Shown here piece after piece: positions 4,902-17,052 of a stretch of 44,060 nt of DNA. The notes below the pieces were generated by a model. It made no database searches. It was not told where the DNA came from and was given only the letters and a program-made list of their open reading frames with translations. Each line of letters begins with the position of its first letter. Position 1 is the first letter of the stretch. The stretch comes from Acidobacteriaceae bacterium. GTDB lineage: Bacteria > Acidobacteriota > Terriglobia > Terriglobales > Acidobacteriaceae. The stretch is from the NCBI GenBank assembly GCA_003156805.1, contig PMHV01000048.1, positions 2,464 to 46,523 on the forward strand, given 5' to 3'. The translations under genes were made by a program, and so were the position numbers.

Positions 4902-6086
4902 ATGAGACGCATTGCCATCCTGGGATCGACGGGCTCCATTGGGCGCAGCACGCTGAGCGTCGCGGAAACTTATCCGGATCGTTTTCAGATTGTCGCGCTG
5001 GCGGCGGGAGCGAACCTGGATGCGGCGTTTGAACAAGCGTGCCGCTGGCGGCCGCGGGTGGTTTCACTGGCTGCGGAAAACGACGCCGAGATTCTGAGTT
5101 CGCGCCTGAAAAAAGAAGGCTCGGGAGAAATCGAAGTGGTTTACGGCGCGGCCGGAACCGTGCGCGCGGCCACGCACGGGGAAGTGGATTTCGTGGTTAG
5201 CGCCATTGTGGGCGTGGCGGGACTGAAAGCTACCTACGAAGCCGTGCGCGCGGGAAAAATCGTTGGCCTGGCCAATAAGGAGTGTCTGGTCGCCGCCGGC
5301 GAATTGATCACCGCCGAGGCGCGCAAGCAAGGCAAGCCGCTGCTGCCCATCGACAGCGAGCACAATGCGGTGCATCAATGCCTGCGCGGCGGGCGCATGG
5401 AGGAAGTGGAGCGCATCTGGCTGACGGCCTCGGGCGGGCCGTTTTTGAACCGGCCGCGCTCGCAGTTCGCGGCGATCACGGTGGAAGAGGCGCTGAACCA
5501 CCCCACATGGCGCATGGGCAAGCGCATTACCATCGATTCGGCGACCTTGATGAACAAGGGCTTTGAGGTAATCGAAGCGTGCAGATTATTTCACATGCCT
5601 CCGCAAAAAGTGGAAGTAATTGTCCATCCGCAATCGACAATTCATTCCATGGTGGAGTTTGTGGATGGCAGCATACTTGCTCAGTTTTCGGTGACGGATA
5701 TGCGCCTGCCGATTTTGTACGCTCTGACGTATCCCGAGCGGATTCAATCGGATATGCGTTTTTCGGTGGGTGACCTGCGGCATCTGGACTTTGGCCCGCC
5801 GGATATGAATAAATTTCCTTGTCTGCATTTGGCGTATCAGGCGGCGGAAGCGGGCGGCGCGAAAACGGTAGCGCTCAATGCCGCCGATGAAGTTGCGGTG
5901 GCCGCGTTTTTGGAAGGCAGCATCCGGTTCGACGAGATTCCCAGGGTCATCGAAGACGTGCTTTCTGCAACCAATTCCGGGAAGCTCGAGTCTATAGAGA
6001 AAGTGCTTGAAGCCGATGCGGAAGCCCGCCGATATGCACAAAAGCGGGTTGCGAAACTTCGAGTTACATCTACATCTTTCGTCTAG
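4902..6086 (+). CDS. dxr: 1-deoxy-D-xylulose 5-phosphate reductoisomerase
   Basis: Dxr performs the first committed step of the MEP isoprenoid pathway, turning DXP into MEP with NADPH. The 394-residue protein starts MRRIAILGSTGSIG, the NADPH-binding glycine motif. The catalytic and metal-binding segment LLPIDSEHNAVHQCL, the flexible-loop region WLTASGGPF, and HPTWRMGKRITIDSATLMNKG and HPQSTIHSMVEF are all present, and length is normal. A TTG three codons upstream (4893) is in frame, but the ATG at 4902 gives the canonical family N-terminus. With ispG at 12.9 kb, two MEP genes lie in this window. Confidence 0.97.
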   Translation: MRRIAILGSTGSIGRSTLSVAETYPDRFQIVALAAGANLDAAFEQACRWRPRVVSLAAENDAEILSSRLKKEGSGEIEVVYGAAGTVRAATHGEVDFVVSAIVGVAGLKATYEAVRAGKIVGLANKECLVAAGELITAEARKQGKPLLPIDSEHNAVHQCLRGGRMEEVERIWLTASGGPFLNRPRSQFAAITVEEALNHPTWRMGKRITIDSATLMNKGFEVIEACRLFHMPPQKVEVIVHPQSTIHSMVEFVDGSILAQFSVTDMRLPILYALTYPERIQSDMRFSVGDLRHLDFGPPDMNKFPCLHLAYQAAEAGGAKTVALNAADEVAVAAFLEGSIRFDEIPRVIEDVLSATNSGKLESIEKVLEADAEARRYAQKRVAKLRVTSTSFV

Positions 6087-6128
6087 AGTTCGGAATCTGA
6101 CAAGTTGGAGATTACGTACCTTACTGTT

Positions 6129-7457
6129 ATGCCTGATTTTCTCACGTCACTGATCGCCGTGGTGGTGGTTCTCGGCTTCATGATCCTGATCCACGAGTTC
6201 GGCCATTATGCGGTGGCCAAGCTGCTCGGGGTGCGAGTTGAAGTTTTCTCGATTGGCTTCGGCAAGCGGCTGCTGGGATTCCGCAAGGGCGACACCGACT
6301 ACCGCATCAGCGCGATTCCGCTGGGCGGCTACGTCAAGATGAGCGGCGAGAACCCAATGGATGAGCGCACGGGCGATCCGGCGGAGTTTATGAATCACCC
6401 GCGCTGGCACCGCTTTTTGGTGGCGATTGCCGGGCCGACCATGAACATTCTGCTGGCGGTGTTCCTGCTGGTCTGCGTGTACATGGTGCACTACGAGTAT
6501 CCGGCGGTGTATGACTCGCCAACCGTGATCGGCTGGGTGATGAAGGGTACGCCAGCGGCTAAAGCCGGCTTCGAGCCGGGCGACCGCATTGTCGGCGTGG
6601 ATGGCATCGCCAATCCGAACTGGGAGCAGGTCGATATACGTGAGGCGCTGAGCCCTGGTCAGCCTCTGGATGTCTCCGTGGAACGCAACGGGGAGATTGT
6701 GAAAAAGACGATCGTGCCGGAATCCTATGGAACGGATCAGATTGGGTTTGCGGGATGGGCTGCCAAAGAGCCGTGCGTTTGCATCACTGAGCTGCAACCG
6801 GACATGCCTGCGGAAAAATCGGGCTTGCGCGAGGGCGATGAAATCCTGGCGGTAGATGGAAAACCCATGCCCGCGCTGGCTGCCATGGCGGAAACCCTGG
6901 AAATCACGAAAGACAAGCCAGTCTCGATCACTGTGCGTCGCGGCAGCGAGCTGAAGACCTTTACGGTGCAGCCGGTTTTAACCGACAAGAGCTATCGCAT
7001 CGGCGTGGGAAGCATGCCGACCAAAGTCACGACCTTGCCGTTTCCTGCCGCCCTTCGGCTTTCGCTGCAAGAAAATAAGAAGGCTTCTCTGCTGATTCTC
7101 GAGTTGGTGCAGAAGATGCTGCAGCGCAAGATTTCCATGCGCTCCATTGAAGGGCCGATTCGCATTGGGCAAGCTGCGGGCGAAGCGGCGCGCCGCAAAG
7201 GCTGGACACCGCTGCTGTTGTTGACTTCCGCCATCAGCCTGAACCTGGGCGTGTTTAACCTGCTGCCGATTCCCATTCTCGATGGCGGCGTGATCATGTT
7301 CCTGTTCATCGAAGGCCTGATGCGGCGCGACGTGAGCCTGCGCATTAAGGAACGGGTCTACCAGGCCGCCTTCGTCTTTCTGGTGCTGTTCGCCGTGATG
7401 GTCATTTACAACGACCTGTTGAAGACCGTTCCGGGCCTGGTGGATCGCCTACCCTAG
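6129..7457 (+). CDS. rseP: RIP metalloprotease, site-2 protease family
   Basis: RseP cleaves membrane-spanning anti-sigma factors and leftover signal peptides inside the cytoplasmic membrane. The 442-residue protein has the zinc motif HEFGH at residues 22-26 in the first helix, two PDZ domains (starting near GWVMKGTPAAKAGFEPGD and ITELQPDMPAEKSGLREGD), and the second active-site motif NLLPIPILDGG near the C-terminus, followed by the last helix. The ATG at 6129 gives the standard family start; a TTG at 6105 is an alternative and neither has a good ribosome site. It is the last gene of the uppS-cdsA-dxr-rseP run. Notably, a membrane anti-sigma factor is encoded 1.1 kb downstream. Confidence 0.95.
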   Translation: MPDFLTSLIAVVVVLGFMILIHEFGHYAVAKLLGVRVEVFSIGFGKRLLGFRKGDTDYRISAIPLGGYVKMSGENPMDERTGDPAEFMNHPRWHRFLVAIAGPTMNILLAVFLLVCVYMVHYEYPAVYDSPTVIGWVMKGTPAAKAGFEPGDRIVGVDGIANPNWEQVDIREALSPGQPLDVSVERNGEIVKKTIVPESYGTDQIGFAGWAAKEPCVCITELQPDMPAEKSGLREGDEILAVDGKPMPALAAMAETLEITKDKPVSITVRRGSELKTFTVQPVLTDKSYRIGVGSMPTKVTTLPFPAALRLSLQENKKASLLILELVQKMLQRKISMRSIEGPIRIGQAAGEAARRKGWTPLLLLTSAISLNLGVFNLLPIPILDGGVIMFLFIEGLMRRDVSLRIKERVYQAAFVFLVLFAVMVIYNDLLKTVPGLVDRLP

Positions 7458-7937
7458 GCAAAAAACATCTCGAAATCTCTTCGTTATGCTGTTCTCCGCA
7501 ATGGCTAATCATTGGTCCGCCCTGGGCCAAAATACCTGGATCCACTGGGTGTCAATAATTCCGTGAAACGATCCGAGCGTTTTCGACACTATTCCAATCA
7601 GTGGGATATGTCGTGCCGTAACGCGACTGCACCACAGTTTAGGATCCCAAGTTAGCAACCACTTGCTGGGATTCCGTTAAGTGCCGGAAGCCGACGGGGG
7701 AAGCGGCTCCGGCACTTCCTGAACGCTTTCTTCTCCGAAGTTGTAGCTTTGTCCTCTCCAAGGGGTACGTTATTTTCCATGGGTACTTCTTACTCACTCC
7801 CGCCCGCCGGCCAAACGCACAGCAGATGTATCGCTAGGAAACGCAAACCTCTGCCTGCCCTCAGCCCGGAAAACAGCCGCAGCGCGCCTCCCCAGGTGCT
7901 ACACTGTTTCCCACTTCAGGGTCTCCGGGGCAGGTCC
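7458..7937. other. Intergenic region with hairpins between rseP and the sigma gene (480 bp)
   Basis: A long inverted repeat at 7679-7715 (AAGTGCCGG-A-AGCCG against CGGCT-CCGGCACTT) can form a stable hairpin that may end rseP transcription, although no T-run follows. A weaker stem-loop lies just upstream (ATCCCAAGT ... CTTGCTGGGAT, about 7646-7674). The sigma gene's frame is open back to 7749, but the extra N-terminus looks non-coding. No clear promoter was recognised. Confidence 0.5.
7679..7715 (+). terminator. Hairpin downstream of rseP, possible terminator without T-run
   Basis: The arms are AAGTGCCGG plus AGCCG on the left and CGGCT plus CCGGCACTT on the right, with one unpaired A and an 8-9-nt loop. 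The long GC stem would be very stable. Only scattered T residues follow, so a termination role is uncertain; it could equally be an mRNA-stabilising structure. Confidence 0.4.
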
Positions 7938-8522
7938 TTGCAATTTCAATCCTTTGACCAGTCTTATCTCGAGCGTCTGCGGGCGGGAGACTTCCGCACG
8001 CAGGAGCACTTCGGCGCGTATTTCAGCGCTCTAATCCAGATCAAATTGCGTTCCCGCTTGAAGTCACCGGAAGCAGTCGAAGACGTCCGTCAGGAAACTT
8101 TTGCCCGATTTTTTGTGGCTCTGCGCGAGGGAAGAATTCTGCAGCCGGAGCGCTTGGGCTCGTTCGTAAACTCCATTTGCAACCACGTCGTGCTGGAGCA
8201 TTACCGGGCGGGGTCCGGCTGCAGTTCGCTGGAAGATGAGAAGCAGCAGGACTTTCCTGCCAAAGGAACCGGCCCGCTGGGCTTCATCGCCGCCAGAGAA
8301 ACGGAAGAGAAAGTTCGGGAGATTCTGGAGCAACTTTCGGAGCGCGACCGGCGGTTGCTGAGCGAGGTTTTCCTCGAGGAGAGGGACAAGGACGAAGTAT
8401 GCCGTGACTTAGGTGTAGACCGGGATTATCTTCGGGTGCTGCTGCATCGCGCGAAACAATCGTTTAAGTCGTTGTATTTAGAGGATAGCGGAGACGATGA
8501 GCCAGGGCTGACTCCGGCCTGA
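7938..8522 (+). CDS. Sigma-70 family (ECF-like) RNA polymerase sigma factor
   Basis: 194 residues if translation starts at the TTG at 7938 (GGGGCAGG lies 4 bp upstream), giving MQFQSFDQSYLERLRAGD. The sigma region 2 is at about 24-85 (LIQIKLRSRLKSPEAVEDVRQETFARFF), and region 4 with its helix-turn-helix is near the C-terminus (LEQLSERDRRLLSEVFLEE ... DKDEVCRDLGVDRDYLRVLLHRAKQSF). It should direct RNA polymerase to a specific promoter set. The frame is open to 7749, but that extension is not sigma-like. The next gene encodes a zinc-binding anti-sigma-like membrane protein, the usual partner arrangement. Confidence 0.85.
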   Translation: MQFQSFDQSYLERLRAGDFRTQEHFGAYFSALIQIKLRSRLKSPEAVEDVRQETFARFFVALREGRILQPERLGSFVNSICNHVVLEHYRAGSGCSSLEDEKQQDFPAKGTGPLGFIAARETEEKVREILEQLSERDRRLLSEVFLEERDKDEVCRDLGVDRDYLRVLLHRAKQSFKSLYLEDSGDDEPGLTPA

Positions 8523-8578
8523 TTGTTTGAAACGCTGGGTCGCGCCGGCGCACTATATGTACGAGGGGGCATTAACCA

Positions 8579-9244
8579 ATGGACCACGATGTGGTGGTTC
8601 GTCAAAAAATGACGGAACGGTATCTGCTCGACGAGCTCGACCCGGAGGTACGGGGCGAATTTGAAGAGCATTTTTTCGACTGCCCGGATTGCGCGCTCGA
8701 CGTTCGCGCCGGGGCTTTATTCGTGGAGCAGAGCAAGGTTGCGTTGGCAAAGAAGTCCGAGCCGATTCCCGCCCGGTTGCCTACATTCGTCCCGGACAAA
8801 CCTGGGTGGCTTGCCTGGCTGCATCCGGGCTTTGCGGTGCCGGTGATGGCCTTGTTGCTGGCCGTGATCGGGTATCAGAATCTGCAACTGACGCGGAAAT
8901 TGAACAGCCCGCATGTCTTGCCGTTTGCGTCGGTGAATGTCGGCACCTATGGATCGGGCGGGCCGATCACGACACATGCGGGAGAAGGTTTTGTACTTCT
9001 TGTGAGGATCCCTCCCGACGGCGCCTATTCGCGTTACACGGCAGACTTGTATAATCCTGCCGGAAAGCCGGAATGGAGGTCGCTTACGATTCCGGCGTCA
9101 GCTTCGCAGGATCAGTGGCTGGTCCAGGTACCGGGAGCGAATTGGCAAGCGGGCAATTACATTTTGGCCGTGCGCGGGGTTACCGCCGCGGGGGAAAGTA
9201 AGGAAGTCGGTCCGGCCTCATTTGAATTGCAAGTTCAGAAGTGA
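8579..9244 (+). CDS. Anti-sigma factor-like membrane protein with HxxxCxxC zinc motif
   Basis: 221 residues. The N-terminal cytoplasmic part has a ZAS-type zinc motif, H31-x3-C35-x2-C38 (EEHFFDCPDC), in the context ERYLLDELDPEVRGEFEEH. One membrane helix follows at about 83-99 (PGFAVPVMALLLAVIGY). The outer domain of about 120 residues is predicted beta-rich (FVLLVRIPP ... YILAVRGV). Established biology: ZAS proteins hold an ECF sigma factor inactive until degraded. Here it would control the sigma factor encoded just upstream. GAGGGGG lies 9 bp before the ATG. Regulated proteolysis could involve RseP or the CHAT protease encoded nearby, both inferences. Confidence 0.8.
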   Translation: MDHDVVVRQKMTERYLLDELDPEVRGEFEEHFFDCPDCALDVRAGALFVEQSKVALAKKSEPIPARLPTFVPDKPGWLAWLHPGFAVPVMALLLAVIGYQNLQLTRKLNSPHVLPFASVNVGTYGSGGPITTHAGEGFVLLVRIPPDGAYSRYTADLYNPAGKPEWRSLTIPASASQDQWLVQVPGANWQAGNYILAVRGVTAAGESKEVGPASFELQVQK

Positions 9245-9270
9245 GAGCTCAAACGGGAGGAGCTAACAAC

Positions 9271-10290
9271 ATGGCGGCAAATCCGAAACCAATTGTTGGA
9301 CCGGTCCCTGTGACGGAACCGTACCACGTGTATCACGCCGAAGCCTACATACTCAAAGGCGAGCTGGAGCAGCCGATTAAGCAGCATATCGAACCATTTG
9401 GGCGCGTTGTTCTGGAGAACACCCGGCGCGAAAGTCTCGTCACGCAATCGGTTGGCGAGACCAATATTGAAGGTCTGATTTCCTTCAAGAGCGGACACAC
9501 GCGCGTGGCGGGCGCCCACGTCAAGCAGAAGGTTGATATTTTCGGCCAGGACCACGCCGGCTGGGTGACGCTGTCGACGGCGGTGCTCGAGGGATACAAC
9601 GTGGAAGATATCGTCACTGCCGACCGCGTGGTTGCGCAGCTTTCCACTCAGCATCCGCTAACGGACGACCCGAAGCAGCCCATCGGCCACGTTCCCCGGG
9701 TGAATTTCATCGGCACGCGCATTGAAAACCTGCGCATCGGCGGCTACCCGGTCGAGGTGGAACTCGACCTGGCATTCTGCGGCCCCAGGCCAGACAGCAA
9801 CCGCTCTTACCTGCAAGACGGCGGCTTTCTCGACCGCGTGCATCGCCAACTCGACGGCGTACTCGATACCGGCGATCTTCCCGAAAGCCTGGAGGAAAAG
9901 TACGGCGCCCAAATCGCCTACATCGACGATCTCAAGAAGCGCGCCAAGGATAGCCGGAACGAAGAAGGTGCGAATGGCGGTTCGAACGGCTATCCTAAGC
10001 TGCGATGTTCACTGGTCAAAAAGATCAAGCCGCAGGTGGAGATTCCCGGCGTCAGGACGTTCGGGAATGCCATCTACATTCGCGACTTTGGCACCGTCTA
10101 TTTGGCCGAGCTCGAAGTCGGCGTCAACAGCGGCCACAGCGAATTCAGGCACCGGAAGGGCGACGCTACGTCGGAGCCGGGCGACAGCAATTACTTCACC
10201 CTGAATATGCTGGATATCCGCCTGGGCTGCCCAGCTACCGGGAGTTCGAGCGGCGCTACAGTTTCGGGCAACGGCCAGACATCGCCGTAG
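9271..10290 (+). CDS. Conserved-looking protein of unknown function in the sigma/CHAT locus
   Basis: 339 residues. The ATG at 9271 has a strong ribosome site, GGGAGGAG, 9 bp upstream; the frame runs back to a GTG at 9241 inside the end of the preceding gene, but that start is less likely. There is no signal peptide or membrane helix, so it is probably cytoplasmic. The middle is rich in beta-type segments (VPVTEPYHVYHAEAYILKGELEQPI ending near GRVVLENTRRESL is one block); the end is Gly/Ser/Thr-rich. I do not recognise a family. Its position between an anti-sigma factor and a TPR-CHAT protease makes it a candidate substrate, adaptor or structural partner of that protease, which is inference only. 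Confidence 0.75.
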   Translation: MAANPKPIVGPVPVTEPYHVYHAEAYILKGELEQPIKQHIEPFGRVVLENTRRESLVTQSVGETNIEGLISFKSGHTRVAGAHVKQKVDIFGQDHAGWVTLSTAVLEGYNVEDIVTADRVVAQLSTQHPLTDDPKQPIGHVPRVNFIGTRIENLRIGGYPVEVELDLAFCGPRPDSNRSYLQDGGFLDRVHRQLDGVLDTGDLPESLEEKYGAQIAYIDDLKKRAKDSRNEEGANGGSNGYPKLRCSLVKKIKPQVEIPGVRTFGNAIYIRDFGTVYLAELEVGVNSGHSEFRHRKGDATSEPGDSNYFTLNMLDIRLGCPATGSSSGATVSGNGQTSP

Positions 10291-10388
10291 GTTTCTCTCT
10301 GCTGGTATGCCTGATCATCGCCTGCGGGTTAGCCTGCAGTCGTCGGGAGAGCCCGCAGGCTTCCTATGAGCATGCCTACAAGACGTTT
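10240..10388 (+). other. In-frame lipoprotein-like leader upstream of the CHAT gene, lacking a normal start codon
   Basis: Upstream of the GTG at 10389, in the same frame, the DNA encodes RRYSFGQRPDIAVGF then SLLVCLIIACGLACS, a basic segment, hydrophobic core and lipobox-like LIIAC. This is what the N-terminus of an exported lipoprotein should look like. The only canonical start codon in this frame before it is the ATG at 10005, deep inside the previous gene. A non-standard start, translational re-initiation at the TAG at 10288, or a sequence error could explain it. Confidence 0.5.
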
Positions 10389-12881
10389 GTGCACGGCAAT
10401 CTGAAAAAGTCTCAGGAAGAAGCCCACCGAGGATACCAACGTTTTCGCGATTCGAGCCCCGAGTGGGCCTGGAGATTCAGAATTCTGGAAGCGGAATCTC
10501 TCCTGTGGCAAGGGATGTACGCGGTGGCGCTGGCGACTGTCGACTCCCCGCCGACACGGCCCGGCGACAAAGATTCGCTCGTCGAAATCCTCGCGATCGA
10601 GGGCGCTGCCAATGCGCGTCTGCGCCAGTTCGCCGAAGCAGATGAGGAACTCAGACAGGCCACGCAAATGTGCCAGGTGTTCCCGGAGGTGACCTGCGGC
10701 GATGTCATACGGGCTCGCGGGGTCCTGGCCGTGCAACGAGGCCAACTCGACGCCGCAAGTCAGCTCTTCGAGCAGTCGTTGCAATTCGCTCGTGCGCACA
10801 ATGATCATTTCCTGGAGGAGACCGCGCTTCTCAACTTGGGCTTGACCTCGCTAAGGGAAGGGCACTTTGACGAAGCTATCGATTGGACGGACGCCGCCTA
10901 CCAGGCATCAACCACCTTGGGAGCTTACGGCGAAGCCCAAAAATCTCTCGGCAATCTTGGTTGGGCCTACTACTACCTAGGCGACTCCGAAAAGTCGTTG
11001 GAAAGATCCCTTGAAGCCGAGAAGCTGGCCAGCCAAGCGGGAAACGTCATCAGTCAGTTGACTTGGATCACGGCCGCCGGTTATGTCTACGCGAGCCGGG
11101 GCGACTTCGCTGGCGCCACACGGTCGTACCAAGAGGCGCTCGATCTAGCAAGCAAGACGGGCGGTAAGGAAGCTATTTTCGACGCCTATCGGGCGCTCGC
11201 TCTGGTGTCGGTTGAGAGCGGCGAAATGAGTGAGGCGCGCAAGTATTCGGACGCGGCAATGGCCATTGCACGCGCCGATAACAACCGGCTGGATGAACTT
11301 TACCCGCTCATGGTTGAGGGGATGATTGCCGCCCGCTCGCACGATGGCGCGGAAGCCGAGCGCATTTTTCACGAGGTCGAACATGACGTGAAGGCGAATG
11401 CCTCACTGAAGTGGCGATCCGAACATGCGCTGGCGCAACTCTATGAGGACGAGGGCCGCGCAGCTGCGGCGGATGGCGAATATCGGGCGGCGCTGGCCAC
11501 GTTCGAAACAGCCCGATCGTCGCTGCAGCGTAACGAGTCGAAGCTGCCCTTTTCTAACAACGCTGCGCGCATCTACGACGACTACATGCATTTTCTGGTG
11601 GCGCGGGGAAAGACGGACGATGCGCTGCGCTGGGCTGACTTCAACCGCGCCCGAACTCTGGCCGAGGGATTGGGATTGCCGAAGGGATCTGCCAATGGGC
11701 CTCCGGCGCTGGACGCCCAGCAAATCGCGCGGAGCGCAGGCGGCACGGTGCTTTTTTATTGGCTGGGCGAGAAGCAGTCGTATTTGTGGGCGAGTACGCC
11801 GCAGAAAACCAGCTTGTTTACACTTCCTCGCGGCTCGGAAATCGACGCCGCTGTGCAACGGTATCGCGAGGCTCTCGGCGGGCCTCAAGACGTTCTGGCA
11901 TCGGCCGACCTGGATGGGCGCTGGCTCTATCGCACACTGATTGCGCCGGCACAGGCACTGTTGATGAAGGACGCGAGGGTTATCGTCATCCCCGACGGCA
12001 GCCTGAACAACCTGAATTTCGAAACCCTGCTCGTCTCCGATCCAAAACTGTCTGATGCAAAGCGGTCTGATCCAAAGCAATCCGGAACAACGCCGTCCGA
12101 ACTCAAATCCGAAGCGAAGTTGCATTACTGGATTGAAGACGCGACCATCGCGAATGCCAGCTCGTTACGTGTGTTCGGTGCTGCGAACGCCGGCAGGAAT
12201 GCGAGCGCGGGCGGTGACAAGAACGAAGGCGGGCATGATCGCCGTCTGCTTCTCGTGGGCAATAGCATCGCGCCCAGCATTAAATATCCAGAACTCCCAG
12301 AGTCTGCTGCCCAAATGGACAACGTTGCCAAACATTTTCCGGCGGTGGAGCGGCTGATATTGGCGCGCGAGCGGGCCACCCCGGCGGCGTATCTGAACAG
12401 CAATCCGGAGCAGTTTTCCTACATCCATTTTGTTGCGCACGGGAAGGCCAACCGGCTGAGCCCGCTCGATTCGGAGATCGTGCTCTCGAGGCCTGTGCCG
12501 TCGGTAGGCAATGCGGAAGACGACTCATTCAAACTCTACGCTCGCGACATCGTTAGCTACCATAAGCAGCATCCCCTGCGGGCGAAGTTGGTTACGATCT
12601 CGGCGTGCTACGGGGCCGGCAAGCGTTGGTACGCGGGTGAGGGCCTGGTCGGACTCTCGTGGGCTTTCCTCAGAGCCGGCGCCCACAACGTGATCGCCGC
12701 CTTGTGGGACGCGTCGGACGCTCCCACGGCACTACTCATGGATAAGTTCTACGACGAACTGGCCAAGGGCGCGAGCCCGGATGCCGCCCTTCGCGCCGCC
12801 AAGCTATCCTTGCTTCGCAACAGCGATTTCCGGAATCCGTTTTACTGGGCGCCCTTTCAGCTCTATGCGCGTTTGGGCTGA
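10389..12881 (+). CDS. TPR-CHAT caspase-like protease
   Basis: About 830 residues from the GTG at 10389; the true start is probably earlier (see the leader feature). The first 500 residues are TPR-like helical repeats (for example [39 protein letters not shown]). The C-terminal third is a CHAT domain (caspase HetF associated with TPRs): the catalytic pair is His684 (YIHFVAHG) and Cys740 ([10 protein letters not shown]), followed by [25 protein letters not shown] and [12 protein letters not shown] linker has a 15-bp tandem repeat (12036-12080). CHAT proteins are cysteine proteases in bacterial defence and signalling. The preceding sigma, anti-sigma and unknown genes suggest a signalling role; ispG follows 49 bp downstream. 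Confidence 0.88.
12036..12080 (+). repeat. 15-bp in-frame tandem repeat in the CHAT linker
   Basis: Three 15-bp units (12036-12050, 12051-12065, 12066-12080) on a TCTGATCCAAAGCNN pattern encode [10 protein letters not shown] and SDPKQ. Degenerate copies continue to about 12113. The repeat lies between the helical repeats and the core of the CHAT domain. Confidence 0.85.
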
Positions 12882-12930
12882 GCCGTCGAGCCGCGAAGCG
12901 CCGTTTCCGCATGTTAAACTAGAAGTTCCC

Positions 12931-14196
12931 ATGGCTATGATTCAAAGCGGTATTCAGCGGAGAAAAACGGTTACCGCCGTCGTCGGCGGTGTGCGGGTCG
13001 GCTCGGATGCACCGGTTGTGGTGCAATCGATGACCAATACCGACACGGCCGACATTCCTTCGACAGTTCAACAGGTTGCGGCGCTGGCACGCGCCGGGTC
13101 TGAACTGGTGCGCGTCACCGTCAACAACGAAGCTGCCGCGGCCGCGGTGCCGCGCATTGTCGAGGAACTCGACAAGCAGGGCATGCGCGTGCCCATCATC
13201 GGCGACTTCCACTATAACGGCCACATTCTGCTGACGAAATATCCGGAGTGCGCGCGCGATCTGGCCAAGTACCGCATCAATCCCGGCAACGTTGGCATCG
13301 GCCGCAAGGATGACAACAACTTCCGCACCATGATCGAAGTAGCAGTGAAGTACCAGAAACCGGTCCGCATCGGCGTGAACTGGGGGTCGCTCGACCAGGC
13401 CCTGCTCACCCGCATGATGGATGAGAACTCGCTCCTCGACGAACCCAAAGACGCCCGCGAAGTCACCATGGAGGCGATGGTGGTGAGCGCGCTGAACTCG
13501 GCTGCGCTGGCGCAGAAATTCGGCCTGCGGGCCGATCAGATCATCCTGAGCGCGAAAGTCAGCGGCGTGCAGGATTTGATCGACGTTTACCGCGCGCTGG
13601 CCGCGCGCTGCGACTACCCACTGCATCTCGGGCTCACAGAAGCCGGCATGGGCGCGAAAGGCGTGGTGGCCTCGAGCGCGGCCATGGGAGTAGTGCTGCA
13701 GGAAGGCATCGGCGATACGATTCGAGTGTCGCTCACACCCGCCCCCGGCGGCGACCGCAGCGAAGAAGTTCGCGTGGCGCAGCAGATTCTGCAATCTATG
13801 GGCATTCGCAGCTTTACGCCGCAAGTCACGGCCTGCCCCGGCTGTGGACGCACCACCAGCACGTTCTTTCAGGAGATGGCCGAGCAGATTCAAACTTACT
13901 TGCGTGAGCAGATGCCGGCGTGGAAGGGCAACTACGTGGGCGTGGAAGAGATGAAGCTTGCCGTCATGGGCTGTGTGGTCAACGGTCCGGGCGAATCGAA
14001 ACATGCTAACATCGGCATTTCGCTCCCCGGGACGTTCGAGGAACCGAAAGCACCCGTCTACGTGGATGGCCGCCTGTTCACTACGCTGAAAGGCGACCGC
14101 ATCGTCGCCGAGTTTATCGAGATTCTTGACGAGTACGTCGACTCGCATTACGCCGCACGAGAAACAGCGAAAGAAGAAGTCGCAAGCAGAGCCTAA
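12931..14196 (+). CDS. ispG: 4-hydroxy-3-methylbut-2-enyl diphosphate synthase (flavodoxin-dependent type)
   Basis: IspG converts MEcPP to HMBPP, the penultimate MEP-pathway step, using a [4Fe-4S] cluster. 421 residues from the ATG at 12931. The TIM-barrel part starts [20 protein letters not shown] and includes [10 protein letters not shown] and [12 protein letters not shown]. The cluster-binding cysteines are C302 and C305 (ACPGCGRTT) and C348 ([10 protein letters not shown]), with the conserved Glu after it. The frame extends back into the CHAT gene, but [16 protein letters not shown] is the natural start. The 49-bp gap allows co-transcription with the CHAT gene, though the two functions are unrelated. 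Confidence 0.95.
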
Positions 14197-14251
14197 CGCC
14201 TGTCTGTCCCACTGCTGGAACATGAGTCTGACCTGTCCTGACTCTTCTGTT

Positions 14252-14296
14252 CTTCGCAGCTTTCTACTTCAGCCGACGGCATCGATCGCTGCGAAG
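14252..14296. other. Inverted repeat between convergent ispG and the YVTN gene
   Basis: Perfect 9-bp arms (CTTCGCAGC 14252-14260, GCTGCGAAG 14288-14296) are separated by 27 bp. The position between two convergent genes suits a bidirectional transcription stop, but there is no T-run, so this is tentative. Confidence 0.35.
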
Positions 14297-14361
14297 GCAG
14301 ACCCGCCATTCTCGATGGATGAGGCTGGAAGAAAATCTGATCGGCCAGTTCGCCCCAGGCG

Positions 14362-15891
14362 CTAATTCCCGGCAAACATGAACAAAGGATTTTGCAGAGG
14401 TGGGGCTGCGCCGCAACTGCCGGCCGTGCCCGAACACGAACCAAATGGTGCAGGCAGATCGGTAACCACCGTGTCGGCACCGACGCCAGCGCCAGGATTG
14501 TTGGTGTCGCTGTCGGTGGTGTTGATGACGGCCACAGAGCCAGCGTCGCACATGCTGACGAAAACATGCGTGCTATCGGCGGAAGCGGTGGTGAAAACAC
14601 GGAAGCGGGTGGACGCCGGCGAATAAGTGGCGGCGGTTGTACACGCAGTTACCGGGGGCACCGCGTAAGGCTCCGCCAACCCGGACGTTGCCGGCAGAAA
14701 GAGCGGCGGAGCCAGCAACAGCATCGGCATACCCGTCTCCAGGGTATTGGAGAGGCTGTCGATGGCCGTGAGTTCGGGGACCATGCAGGGCGAGACGGTT
14801 ACATTCGGGTCCGGGCAAGGCGAAGCGATTTGATAGCTCGCCACGTACGCCCGCGTGCCATCGGGCAGTGCGGTCACGGAAACCGGAACCGCGGCGCCGC
14901 ATCCCGGACATGCCGTGGTTGTAGTTGCGCCCAGCCCGGTAATCGGCAGCGTCGTCAGCAGGCTTGGCGTGTCATTGGCTCCGCCAGTATCGGAAAAAAT
15001 ATACAGCGTGCCGGTTGCCGGATTGGTCACATAAAGCCGATTGCCGTTCGAATCGAAATAGATGAAATTGGCCCCGGCGCCTACAGAAAAACTGCCGCTG
15101 ACCGTGTCCGTGGCTGTATCGATCGTAATCAGCTTGCCGTCGCCTTGGGTCAGCACGTAGATTTTCTGGCTATCGCCGCGCGCCGCCAGCCAGACCGGAG
15201 TAACTCCGCTAAAGCCGGTCACCGTATTCTGGGTCAGGCCCACTATGTTCAGGCTGGTTATCGTGTTATCGCCCTGGTTGGCTACATAGAGCTTGGTGGC
15301 GTCCGGAGTTTCTGCCAACGCCACGGGGTTCACTCCTACGGAAACGATGCTGCTCACGATGTTCGAGTTAGAGTTGAGAACAGCCACCGAATTTGTTCCG
15401 AAATCGGCTACGTAGGCCGCTGCATTCTCCATGGTGTTGACGAATACGGGCAAAGATCCGGCAGGCAGGCTAAACGTGGTAACGATGCCTAACCCTGAAG
15501 CGATCGCGGAATCGGCTACGGGTGTAAAAGCGGCGACCGTGTCCGCTCCGCCGGCAATAAGACTGCCAGCGTTGGTCACAAATACGCGGCCGTTATTCGG
15601 AGTAATGCCGGCGTGGGTAGGATTGAGGCCCGTGTTCGCCGCTCCGATATCGGTATCTCCGGAAACATCCAGCTCCATGCCGGTTCCCGCATAGAATGAT
15701 CCGTTGCCATTGATAGCGAACACGGCGTGGAAGTTGCTGGGGGTCGGATTGGTAACCGTGGGGCATCCGGGGACGCTGCCGTTGGTCCCCACGCAGGGAA
15801 TCACCACCGGACGGTAGTATTGCCCGCAGCCGATTTCAAAGAGACTCAGCCCCAACAATGCCATCCATTGACATACACGTCGCAAACTCAT
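14362..15891 (-). CDS. YVTN-type beta-propeller protein, probably exported
   Basis: 509 residues from the ATG at 15891. The N-terminus has a basic start, a hydrophobic core and a cysteine (SLRRVCQWMALLGLSLFEIGC), so export and perhaps lipid attachment are likely, although the residue before IGC is atypical for a lipobox. Several propeller blades follow, with YVTN-like motifs such as DATKLYVANQGDNTITSLNI, NGNRLYVTNPATGTLYIF and VFVTNAG. Such proteins are extracytoplasmic and usually bind partners or surfaces; no catalytic function can be assigned. The frame continues upstream to 16107 but that stretch looks non-coding. Confidence 0.75.
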   Translation of the reverse strand: MSLRRVCQWMALLGLSLFEIGCGQYYRPVVIPCVGTNGSVPGCPTVTNPTPSNFHAVFAINGNGSFYAGTGMELDVSGDTDIGAANTGLNPTHAGITPNNGRVFVTNAGSLIAGGADTVAAFTPVADSAIASGLGIVTTFSLPAGSLPVFVNTMENAAAYVADFGTNSVAVLNSNSNIVSSIVSVGVNPVALAETPDATKLYVANQGDNTITSLNIVGLTQNTVTGFSGVTPVWLAARGDSQKIYVLTQGDGKLITIDTATDTVSGSFSVGAGANFIYFDSNGNRLYVTNPATGTLYIFSDTGGANDTPSLLTTLPITGLGATTTTACPGCGAAVPVSVTALPDGTRAYVASYQIASPCPDPNVTVSPCMVPELTAIDSLSNTLETGMPMLLLAPPLFLPATSGLAEPYAVPPVTACTTAATYSPASTRFRVFTTASADSTHVFVSMCDAGSVAVINTTDSDTNNPGAGVGADTVVTDLPAPFGSCSGTAGSCGAAPPLQNPLFMFAGN

Positions 15892-16210
15892 CGGCACCCC
15901 AAAAGGAAAAGTTCCAGCCCCGCGCCAGAGGAATTCCACATTGTAACGGCTAACCGCAATCTGTGCCAGCGGCGCGGGACGCAGCAGGGACATTGTGACT
16001 ACAAGAAGGCTGCCATACATAGTCTGGTTCGAGAGATGCGGTTGGGAATGGAGAGGATGTATCTGCCCAACCGCATTTCGAGTGAGCGCGGATTCAAGGA
16101 CAGACAAAGGTCAGCGCCGGGCCGAGCTAAATCCCTTGCTTGCTGGTTGTCATAGGTACGCCAATGGCGTATAGTAGATGAACGTACTACAACAGTGAAT
16201 TACACGATGC
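15892..16210. other. Intergenic region with the promoter of the toxin-antitoxin operon (319 bp)
   Basis: Between the divergent YVTN and toxin genes. The only features seen are the promoter and palindromes at 16147-16190, listed separately. The rest holds no supported gene. Confidence 0.55.
16147..16175 (+). promoter_or_regulatory. Sigma-70 promoter of the HigBA-like operon with overlapping operator palindrome
   Basis: TTGTCA (16147-16152) and TATAGT (16170-16175) are separated by exactly 17 bp. A perfect palindrome TACGCC-AAT-GGCGTA (16157-16171) overlaps the spacer and the -10 box. A second, looser palindrome (GTAG 16174-16177, CTAC 16187-16190) lies next to it. Autorepression by the antitoxin is the rule for such operons, so the palindrome is the likely antitoxin binding site. 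Confidence 0.7.
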
Positions 16211-16585
16211 ATGGAGTTCATTGAAGCGCCTCCGTTTACACGTTACCTGGCGGCATATTTGAGCGACGACGGTTACAGAGAATTGCAGGACTGGCTGGCC
16301 GAGAATCCGGAGTGCGAAGATTTGATTCCGGGAACGGGCGGGCTCCGCAAGGTGCGCTGGGCGGATGCGCGGCGGGGCAAAGGCCGGAGAGGCGGACTGC
16401 GCATCATTTATTACCACTTCAGATCCGATCATCAGATATGGTTGATGACTCTATACGATAAAAACGAAGCTTCAGACCTGACAGCAAACGAGACAAAGGC
16501 GCTGAAAGGCGCGATCGAAAATGAGCTAGAAGCGCGCGCGGCGGCAAGAGTCGTCGGGCCACGCAGGGTGCGGAGGATACGGTAA
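16211..16585 (+). CDS. HigB/RelE-type mRNA-interferase toxin
   Basis: 124 residues with the HigB/RelE pattern: FIEAPPFTRYLAAYLSDDGY near the start, then DLIPGTGGLRKVRWADARRGKG, then GGLRIIYYHF and IWLMTLYDKNEASDLT. These toxins cut mRNA on the ribosome and are held inactive by the partner antitoxin. The gene is followed by the XRE antitoxin gene with a TAATG overlap (stop 16583-16585, next start 16585), so the two are translationally coupled. Toxin-first order is typical of higBA. No clear ribosome site lies before the ATG. Confidence 0.88.
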   Translation: MEFIEAPPFTRYLAAYLSDDGYRELQDWLAENPECEDLIPGTGGLRKVRWADARRGKGRRGGLRIIYYHFRSDHQIWLMTLYDKNEASDLTANETKALKGAIENELEARAAARVVGPRRVRRIR

Positions 16586-17052
16586 TGGCGAAGAGAAATA
16601 TTTTTGGCGAACTAATGGAAGGGGCGGCGGCGATGAAGAACCATCGCGAGGGCAAGCTCACATTGCGCAGTTACAAGGTTGATGTGATGCCGCTGCCCAA
16701 GGTGGATTCAAAGCTGCTTCGCGATACTCGAAAAAAACTGCGCTGCTCACGAGCGGTATTCGCGCGCAAACTGAGGATCAACGAAAGAACGCTGGAAAAA
16801 TGGGAACAGGGGCGTGCGAAGCCGAACCCTCAGGCGGCGGCACTTGTCCTTCTCGTCCGCAAATACCCGGACACGCTGGCGCGACTGGACGCGCTTGCGA
16901 ACGGTGAAACGAGATCGCCAGCCTTCCGCCAACAGGCAAAAGGACGAGCTCCCGGCGTCACTTCGTCCATTTATCCTTGTACTCCTGCTGAGAGACTGCT
17001 ACCGCACCGTCGTGCCCGCGCACGTAAACGTCATCTCTCACAGTTGTCTTGA
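16585..17052 (+). CDS. HigA-like XRE antitoxin with unusual C-terminal extension
   Basis: 155 residues. The helix-turn-helix core is at about 46-95 (LLRDTRKKLRCSRAVFARKLRINERTLEKWEQGRAKPNPQAAAL), which matches HigA/NadS-type antitoxins that neutralise a HigB toxin and repress the operon. Family members usually end shortly after the LVRKYPDTLARLDAL segment. Here the frame runs about 45 residues further, with a basic, low-information tail (RRARARKRHLSQLS at the end) that overlaps the 3' end of the convergent gene by 95 bp. Loss of the original stop codon is the likely cause. Confidence 0.85.
   Translation: MAKRNIFGELMEGAAAMKNHREGKLTLRSYKVDVMPLPKVDSKLLRDTRKKLRCSRAVFARKLRINERTLEKWEQGRAKPNPQAAALVLLVRKYPDTLARLDALANGETRSPAFRQQAKGRAPGVTSSIYPCTPAERLLPHRRARARKRHLSQLS

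Follow-up and report, generated by a model that had tools for sequence, protein, structure and literature searches.

A conserved cassette of sigma factor, anti-sigma factor and TPR-CHAT protease genes, probably an envelope-to-gene alarm circuit of soil Acidobacteria

The genome of Acidobacteriaceae bacterium GCA_003156805.1 carries, on contig PMHV01000048.1, a row of four genes that, judging from the sequences, probably constitutes a protease-linked envelope-to-gene alarm circuit of soil Acidobacteria. All coordinates below are those of the 44,060-nucleotide (nt) stretch of the forward strand that was analysed (the window), in which an extracytoplasmic function (ECF) sigma factor, a ZAS anti-sigma factor, an uncharacterised protein and a tetratricopeptide repeat (TPR)-CHAT protease are encoded one after another on the plus strand from 7938 to 12881. 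A preliminary description of this DNA had listed a sigma factor, a one-helix ZAS anti-sigma factor, a 339-residue protein and a TPR-CHAT protease in a row, and all four assignments were borne out. We propose, giving the idea an even chance, that the extracytoplasmic TPR-CHAT protein would act as both sensor and site-1 protease, cutting the outer domain of the anti-sigma factor and thereby freeing the sigma factor. The assembly of the window's own genome (G000) is 95% complete and consists of 75 contigs.

Conservation of the four-gene order

A search of 150 related genomes with the uncharacterised protein, the anti-sigma factor and the CHAT protein matched the first in 39 genomes and the second in 46, and relatives of the window's CHAT protein, paralogues included, were found in 113. 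We examined 40 regions of these relatives, namely 38 with matches to the uncharacterised protein or the anti-sigma factor, the detached CHAT gene of genome G035 and one short G010 contig. CHAT was in place in 36 of the 38, the exceptions being a locus at a contig end (L116) and a G035 locus with no CHAT nearby (L103); the sigma factor of one locus (L129) was detected by clustering of open reading frames (ORFs) only. When a named collection was scanned with the uncharacterised protein as seed, 71 loci were recovered, with CHAT downstream on the same strand in 70, the anti-sigma gene upstream in 69 and the sigma gene upstream in 67. The gaps for sigma and anti-sigma all fall at contig ends, and the sole exception for CHAT (L162) is probably the same place as the G035 locus. 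Many genomes are common to both collections, and the distinct loci, told apart by a stretch of CHAT DNA, number 88. Whether the four-gene order recurs in other Acidobacteriota, a check put forward in the preliminary description, is answered by these two scans. Inter-locus distances, moreover, correlate among all four proteins (r 0.65–0.89, 34–37 loci), compared with at most 0.41 in 200 permutations.

Twenty loci of other CHAT genes, drawn from the CHAT matches in the 150 relatives, served as a contrast. Sigma and anti-sigma genes, some of them weak matches, were both nearby in 5 of these and the uncharacterised protein in none, so that the CHAT–sigma neighbourhood is wider than the cassette while the four-gene form is specific. 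The preliminary description had considered that CHAT homologues might mostly lie apart from a sigma/anti-sigma pair; this is not the case for the orthologues, although it does describe the contrast set. In another CHAT–sigma arrangement (L204, G072:C104:48000-64000), a tandem pair of CHAT genes precedes sigma and anti-sigma genes, and the uncharacterised gene is absent. Some cassettes carry insertions between the uncharacterised gene and CHAT: a partial second copy of the uncharacterised gene, suggesting tandem duplication (L093/L135 in G040, and L132), or an inverted TPR-like gene (L100/L133 in G030, L102/L190 in G033).

The 71 loci come from 69 Acidobacteria of various names, one Thermoanaerobaculia genome and one Luteimonas isolate, Luteimonas being a gammaproteobacterium; the occurrence in the last two suggests transfer of the cassette as a unit. 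Granulicella and Silvibacterium, which have cultured members, are among its carriers. The non-acidobacterial isolate (L195, Luteimonas panaciterrae contig8) has a complete cassette with two promoter-motif matches upstream, likely a transfer across phyla. We found no description of the four-gene cassette in the open-access literature, most subscription journals lying outside its coverage, and the accessible parts of a Granulicella transcriptome paper (PMC7074687) and of the Solibacter genome paper (PMC3174227) contain nothing on CHAT.

The encoded proteins and the promoter motif

The sigma factor scores 43.8 bits against the TIGR02937 (sigma70-ECF) cut-off of 42.9 when scanned from 7749; the single Pfam regions stay just under their cut-offs, and we judge ECF regions 2 and 4 to be present through TIGR02937. 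By sequence it matched no solved protein. Its start at TTG 7938 is supported by start-codon usage in the 82 orthologous loci where a start was found (TTG 69, GTG 12, ATG 1) and by the stop codons that lie just upstream in many of them. The anti-sigma factor exceeds the zf-HC2 cut-off (24 against 22.2 bits), and its H3, H31, C35 and C38, which include the H-x3-C-x2-C signature, are invariant in all 38 aligned orthologues, the truncated L127 having been left out. The AlphaFold2 model consists of N-terminal helices, a membrane helix at residues 83–108 and a C-terminal beta sandwich with weak Ig/FN3-type fold matches, which is predicted to be extracytoplasmic, as the preliminary description had supposed. 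ECF regions, H-x3-C-x2-C signature and membrane helix are together those of an ECF sigma factor with a class I (ZAS) anti-sigma factor.

The protease has a clear CHAT domain (PF12770, E 6.5e-43) whose catalytic His and Cys are invariant in all 35 aligned sequences; the truncated or interrupted L117 and L118 were left out of this alignment, and L103 and L116 have no CHAT. The CHAT profile has 130 PDB matches, the first 60 being to TPR or TPR-like segments. Every one of the 35 begins with a strong hydrophobic stretch (12-residue mean hydropathy 2.07–3.38), and a lipobox-like Cys follows it in 62 of the 88 loci by script and in 2 more by eye; in one group, to which Occallatibacter, Granulicella and Terracidiphilus belong, the stretch is present but the lipobox Cys is absent. 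CHAT is thus predicted to be exported and is probably a lipoprotein in most species, in keeping with the lipid anchor outside the membrane considered earlier.

The numbering His684/Cys740 of the preliminary description has to be given up, since it implies a start at GTG 10389, which removes the signal peptide. The CHAT frame has no ATG, GTG or TTG between ATG 10005 and GTG 10389, and a start at CTG 10227, inside the uncharacterised gene and sharing 64 nt with it in the -1 frame, is plausible from comparison with other loci. In 43 of the 62 lipobox loci, the signal of CHAT directly adjoins the stop codon of the uncharacterised gene, in 40 of these in the -1 frame. Eight of the 43 abutting loci have no ATG, GTG or TTG in the 70 codons before the lipobox Cys, and 30 have an NTG codon 32–36 residues before it (19 CTG, 5 GTG, 4 TTG, 2 ATG), in many cases formed by Gly-Cys codons of the uncharacterised gene; 14 of the 19 separated loci have an ATG 20–45 residues before the Cys. 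A programmed -1 frameshift fusing the uncharacterised protein to CHAT was set aside because an X_XXY_YYZ heptamer lies near the stop in only 6 of the 40, the lipobox is kept, and starts are at hand as ATG in separated and NTG in abutting loci.

The uncharacterised protein of the window gave no convincing match in Pfam, NCBIfam, PHROGs or PADLOC. Thirty of its 38 orthologues, though, match NF040603 (choice-of-anchor P) when NCBIfam is searched at E up to 10, the best at E 2.2e-12, and 8 of the 10 scanned closely exceed the cut-off of 27 bits; the match covers about the N-terminal half, and the window's own member gives none. On these sequence grounds the protein is probably a divergent choice-of-anchor-P relative. 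Full-length members of NF040603 occur elsewhere in the genomes G034, G057, G120 and G131. In the alignment, from which the contig-end L116 was left out, an NG pair near the C-terminus is invariant in 38 of 38 orthologues. None of the 38 has a signal-like N-terminus (12-residue mean at most 1.61, against the values of CHAT given above), and the highest 19-residue mean hydropathy in any of them, 1.69, is borderline. The confident model (pLDDT 87.8) consists largely of beta structure, plus two helices around residues 184–227, and had no PDB or viral fold match with E ≤ 0.001; no PDB sequence matched the profile at E 10, the Csx30 entry 8EEY being assumed among those searched.

Table 1. Position and basis of the cassette features within the window
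Feature	Position	Strand	Basis
Promoter P1, TGAAACG-N16-CACTA, upstream of sigma	7564..7591	+	best matrix match of window; letters checked
ECF sigma factor, TTG start	7938..8522	+	TIGR02937; start usage in orthologues
Promoter P2, in sigma/anti-sigma gap, before anti-sigma, uncharacterised gene and CHAT	8528..8555	+	second matrix match
ZAS anti-sigma factor, single-pass membrane protein	8579..9244	+	zf-HC2, ZAS residues, model
Anti-sigma membrane helix, residues 83–108	8825..8902	+	AlphaFold2 secondary structure
Anti-sigma predicted extracytoplasmic Ig/FN3-like domain, proposed substrate	8909..9241	+	model, weak fold matches
Uncharacterised protein, 339 residues, probable divergent choice-of-anchor-P relative without signal peptide	9271..10290	+	NF040603 matches in orthologues
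TPR-CHAT protease carrying an export signal; start probably CTG	10227..12881	+	PF12770, start analysis
Hydrophobic signal of CHAT; its lipobox-like Cys is at 10323-10325 or 10335-10337	10290..10337	+	
CHAT catalytic His	12438..12440	+	alignment, letters checked
CHAT catalytic Cys	12606..12608	+	alignment, letters checked

A search for paired words upstream of the sigma gene yielded a motif whose orientation TAGTG-N16-CGTTTCA was rejected after scans of both strands gave TGAAACG-N16-CACTA as the promoter. We built a matrix from 20 upstream sites, excluding gap sites and those of the window; over both strands of the 44-kb window, its best matches are P1 (28.3) and P2 (21.1), the best outside the cassette reaches 12.1, and shuffled upstream regions reach at most 10.6. 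In 82 loci, the gap between sigma and anti-sigma genes has a forward site in 50 and a reversed one in none, and within 500 nt upstream of sigma there are forward sites in 31 loci and divergent ones in 25; at least one gap or near-upstream site is found in 69, and no site at all in 3. Farther upstream, 26 loci have forward and 3 reversed sites, and downstream the counts are 12 and 10.

Of 42 cassette genomes, 40 contain the exact motif (149 sites, those inside the cassette included), versus 11 of 108 others (14 sites). Relatedness makes the Fisher p of 7.6e-24 too small; in a comparison confined to the window's genus, the motif is present in 27 of 27 cassette genomes versus 4 of 18 others. These tallies were made by hand, and single sites may be due to chance, considering that the reversed motif used as control has 46 sites in the same 42 genomes. 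Of 101 genomes, 13 have the longer form TGAAACG-N16-CACTATTC (control 0); every one of these 13 belongs to the 31 cassette carriers, and 10 of the 17 sites of this form are on contigs other than the cassette's. Against a link between the sigma factor and this promoter stand G003, which has four motif sites without a cassette, and G078 and G122, which have the cassette without an exact site. Given the concentration of the motif in cassette genomes, it is nonetheless very likely, as far as sequence can tell, that the sigma factor reads TGAAACG-N16-CACTA and drives the anti-sigma gene, the uncharacterised gene and CHAT.

The window's genome has seven further exact sites, whose neighbours include a pro-kumamolisin-type protein and a heme-binding protein; a phosphoesterase, a copper oxidase, an FAD oxidase, an isoamylase and a choice-of-anchor D protein adjoin copies in other genomes. 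These gene sets differ between genomes, and in 58 regions around a subset of the motif copies, 53 downstream ORFs yielded only five two-member families. We also surveyed 30 contractile-injection-system sheath loci in 16 genomes. In G083 (L347/L358, G083:C5) an exact motif lies about 420 nt upstream of a sheath gene identified by PDB and Pfam matches; in G060 (L362/L379) a motif with one mismatch lies about 240 nt upstream of one; and in G029 (L285) a motif lies 1.8 kb upstream of the sheath with a sigma-54-activator ORF between. The window's genome has no sheath match. These cases are suggestive of contractile-injection genes in the sigma regulon of a few cassette genomes.

Proposed mechanism and competing explanations

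Let us consider how such a circuit might work. The cytoplasmic ZAS domain of the anti-sigma factor would hold the ECF sigma factor at the membrane. The TPR region, perhaps together with the uncharacterised protein, would recognise a signal, upon which the CHAT domain might cut the outer Ig-like domain of the anti-sigma factor, and a housekeeping intramembrane protease such as RseP could complete the cut and release the sigma factor. The sigma factor would then transcribe the anti-sigma factor, the uncharacterised protein and the protease from P2, as feedback, and the operon from P1, and presumably also a small, genome-specific set of other genes. We favour CHAT as the site-1 protease because it would be exported into the compartment that also holds the anti-sigma factor's outer domain, with the sigma factor feeding back on both.

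Three mosaic cassettes, apparent natural recombinants of one event each as judged from similarity profiles, with breaks close to domain boundaries, bear on the division of labour. In G017, the sigma factor and the cytoplasmic half of the anti-sigma factor are 85–100% identical to G004, depending on the segment compared, and everything from the membrane helix of the anti-sigma factor onward, the uncharacterised protein and CHAT included, resembles G015 and relatives. In G014, the sigma factor, the anti-sigma factor and the CHAT domain (starting near residue 511) group with our window and its near kin, and the uncharacterised protein and the TPR region come from another lineage. The TPR region of G004 is of the window's lineage up to about residue 340 and the remainder of G020's. 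The mosaics fit, as far as such profiles can tell, a fixed core of sigma factor, anti-sigma factor and CHAT domain with an exchangeable sensing part, the TPR region, once with the uncharacterised protein.

Several observations weigh against the proposed mechanism. No solved structure was matched by sequence with the CHAT domain. None of the sequences inspected has Asp directly after the lipobox Cys; in E. coli, a lipoprotein without Asp after its Cys goes to the outer membrane, and by this rule the protease would be placed away from the anti-sigma factor. The G004 mosaic exchanged its TPR region without the uncharacterised protein. In G035 (G035:C2 and G035:C13; L103, L131), the only such case seen, CHAT lies apart from the cassette: the two promoters stay at the cassette, and the detached gene has only a weak match (10.9) 1.25 kb upstream. 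Distance-based partial correlations over 72 loci, computed on raw values, logarithms and ranks, are small and positive in all modes for most domain pairs. For the anti-sigma outer domain and CHAT the value is 0.40 raw, 0.29 log and 0.13 by ranks (bootstrap -0.01 to 0.33), which is not robust, and the apparently strong coevolution of this pair seen with 33 loci thus weakened with 72. By ranks the cytoplasmic half of the anti-sigma factor stands higher (0.25), and the partial correlation of sigma with CHAT (0.41, 0.43 and 0.27 in the three modes), which our model does not predict, is as strong.

RseP, recognised by TIGR00054 over its cut-off at 6105–7457 in a gene ending about 480 nt before sigma, had been suggested in the preliminary description as able to complete the cut, but the roughly 4-kb flanks of the 40 relatives' regions contain no match to rseP, dxr or cdsA, nor a true ispG, the only match to the latter being one of 37 residues in L093 that stems from an overlap of the query with the CHAT end. 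As the flanks differ between cassette loci, rseP beside the window's cassette is incidental, though action in trans is possible.

Since P2 precedes CHAT, the protease is likely a member of the sigma regulon and could stand at the output end of the circuit instead of activating it. On such an account, which we consider a serious but less probable alternative, CHAT and the uncharacterised protein would both be outputs of a sigma/anti-sigma pair that senses an envelope signal alone and induces an exported protease acting elsewhere. P2 directly precedes the anti-sigma gene, the uncharacterised gene and CHAT as this account requires, and the pro-kumamolisin-type protein, phosphoesterase and oxidases beside other motif copies would suit it. 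ECF systems commonly feed back on their own anti-sigma factor, however, so that P2 does not separate this account from the site-1 protease, and the near-obligate linkage of four genes amid changing flanks exceeds what a regulon member would need.

It is rather unlikely, to our mind, that the true brake or substrate would be the uncharacterised protein, in the manner of Craspase's Csx30, with the ZAS protein as a second control. The uncharacterised gene precedes CHAT in 70 of the 71 loci, the covariation of the protein is best supported for the TPR region (partial r 0.34–0.35 in all three modes, the steadiest of all pairs), and the two share a foreign lineage in G014. Yet its covariation with the CHAT domain is -0.05 to -0.11, and the preliminary description's suggestion that it might be a CHAT substrate has become doubtful, since CHAT appears exported and the protein lacks both an export signal and a match to a solved protein, 8EEY presumably included.

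That same protein, resembling a surface-protein fold yet lacking an export signal, invites a more speculative scenario, a long shot in our estimation, in which the circuit would be an alarm for kin lysis or invasion: the internal protein would reach the outer TPR-CHAT of neighbours after a cell is burst or pierced, its binding to the TPR region would activate CHAT, and with the anti-sigma factor cut the sigma factor would be switched on. If so, the sigma factor would turn on a protease, a phosphoesterase and an oxidase, plus contractile-injection-system genes in a few genomes, and the uncharacterised protein and TPR region would be an exchangeable, fast-evolving recognition pair beside a fixed core of CHAT and anti-sigma factor. 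Lastly, a chance or housekeeping neighbourhood of functionally unlinked protease and sigma genes, conceivable in view of how common CHAT is in Acidobacteria, is contradicted by the conserved order and by distance correlations well above the permuted values, and we regard it as highly improbable.

Relation to known systems

A parallel for the CHAT-as-site-1-protease mechanism outside CRISPR is regulated intramembrane proteolysis of RseA and RsiW, in which DegS or PrsW cuts first and RseP follows. The cassette resembles these in its single-pass ZAS anti-sigma factor with an outer domain and in the presence of RseP in the window's genome; it differs in that the candidate site-1 protease is an operon-encoded TPR-CHAT enzyme and in having a fourth conserved protein. 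To our knowledge, the known site-1 proteases of anti-sigma factors are few, namely DegS, PrsW and relatives. Positions 14–43 of the anti-sigma profile match the ZAS stretch of 3hug (E 0.00068), which we take to be M. tuberculosis RslA/SigL; the ZAS stretches are alike, whereas the outer domain of the cassette's anti-sigma factor is unmatched. Choice-of-anchor P proteins have a signal peptide and a C-terminal anchor, whereas their putative cassette relative, despite the NF040603 matches of most orthologues, has no signal-like N-terminus, is matched over about its N-terminal half, and in the window is not matched.

According to the accessible part of its description, ECF54 has CHAT, subtilase and carboxypeptidase neighbours and is proposed to work without an anti-sigma factor (PMC8999054). 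To that extent it is alike in placing an ECF sigma factor with a CHAT gene in a conserved context, and differs from the cassette, which keeps its ZAS anti-sigma factor in 69 of 71 loci.

In the Craspase/CASP system (Csx29 TPR-CHAT, Csx30, CASP-sigma), as far as the accessible part of the report goes, the protease is encoded with an ECF sigma factor and an inhibitor, cleavage of which would free the sigma factor, and sigma sites lie in the system's own locus (PMC10028731). The cassette shares the TPR-CHAT His/Cys dyad, the ECF sigma factor, an inhibitor candidate and likely sigma sites in its own locus; in contrast, its CHAT carries an export signal and its inhibitor candidate is a membrane ZAS protein. 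PF03787, representing Cas7-11/RAMP, had no match in the window's genome, compared with matches in 4 of 14 control genomes, and neither array-like repeats at 5000–17000 nor any Rfam match in the window was found. The cassette is thus no CRISPR system, though its proposed logic is like that of Craspase: of the CRISPR-free Craspase analogue put forward in the preliminary description this likeness in logic is kept, and the Csx30-like substrate, for which neither the profile nor the fold searches described above gave a homologue, is unsupported. Should the proposed mechanism be true, a caspase-like TPR-CHAT enzyme located beyond the inner membrane would join the site-1 proteases, the abundant CHAT proteins (113 of the 150 relatives) would gain a candidate substrate and a promoter read-out, and Craspase-type sigma release would appear as an ordinary envelope signalling module outside CRISPR.

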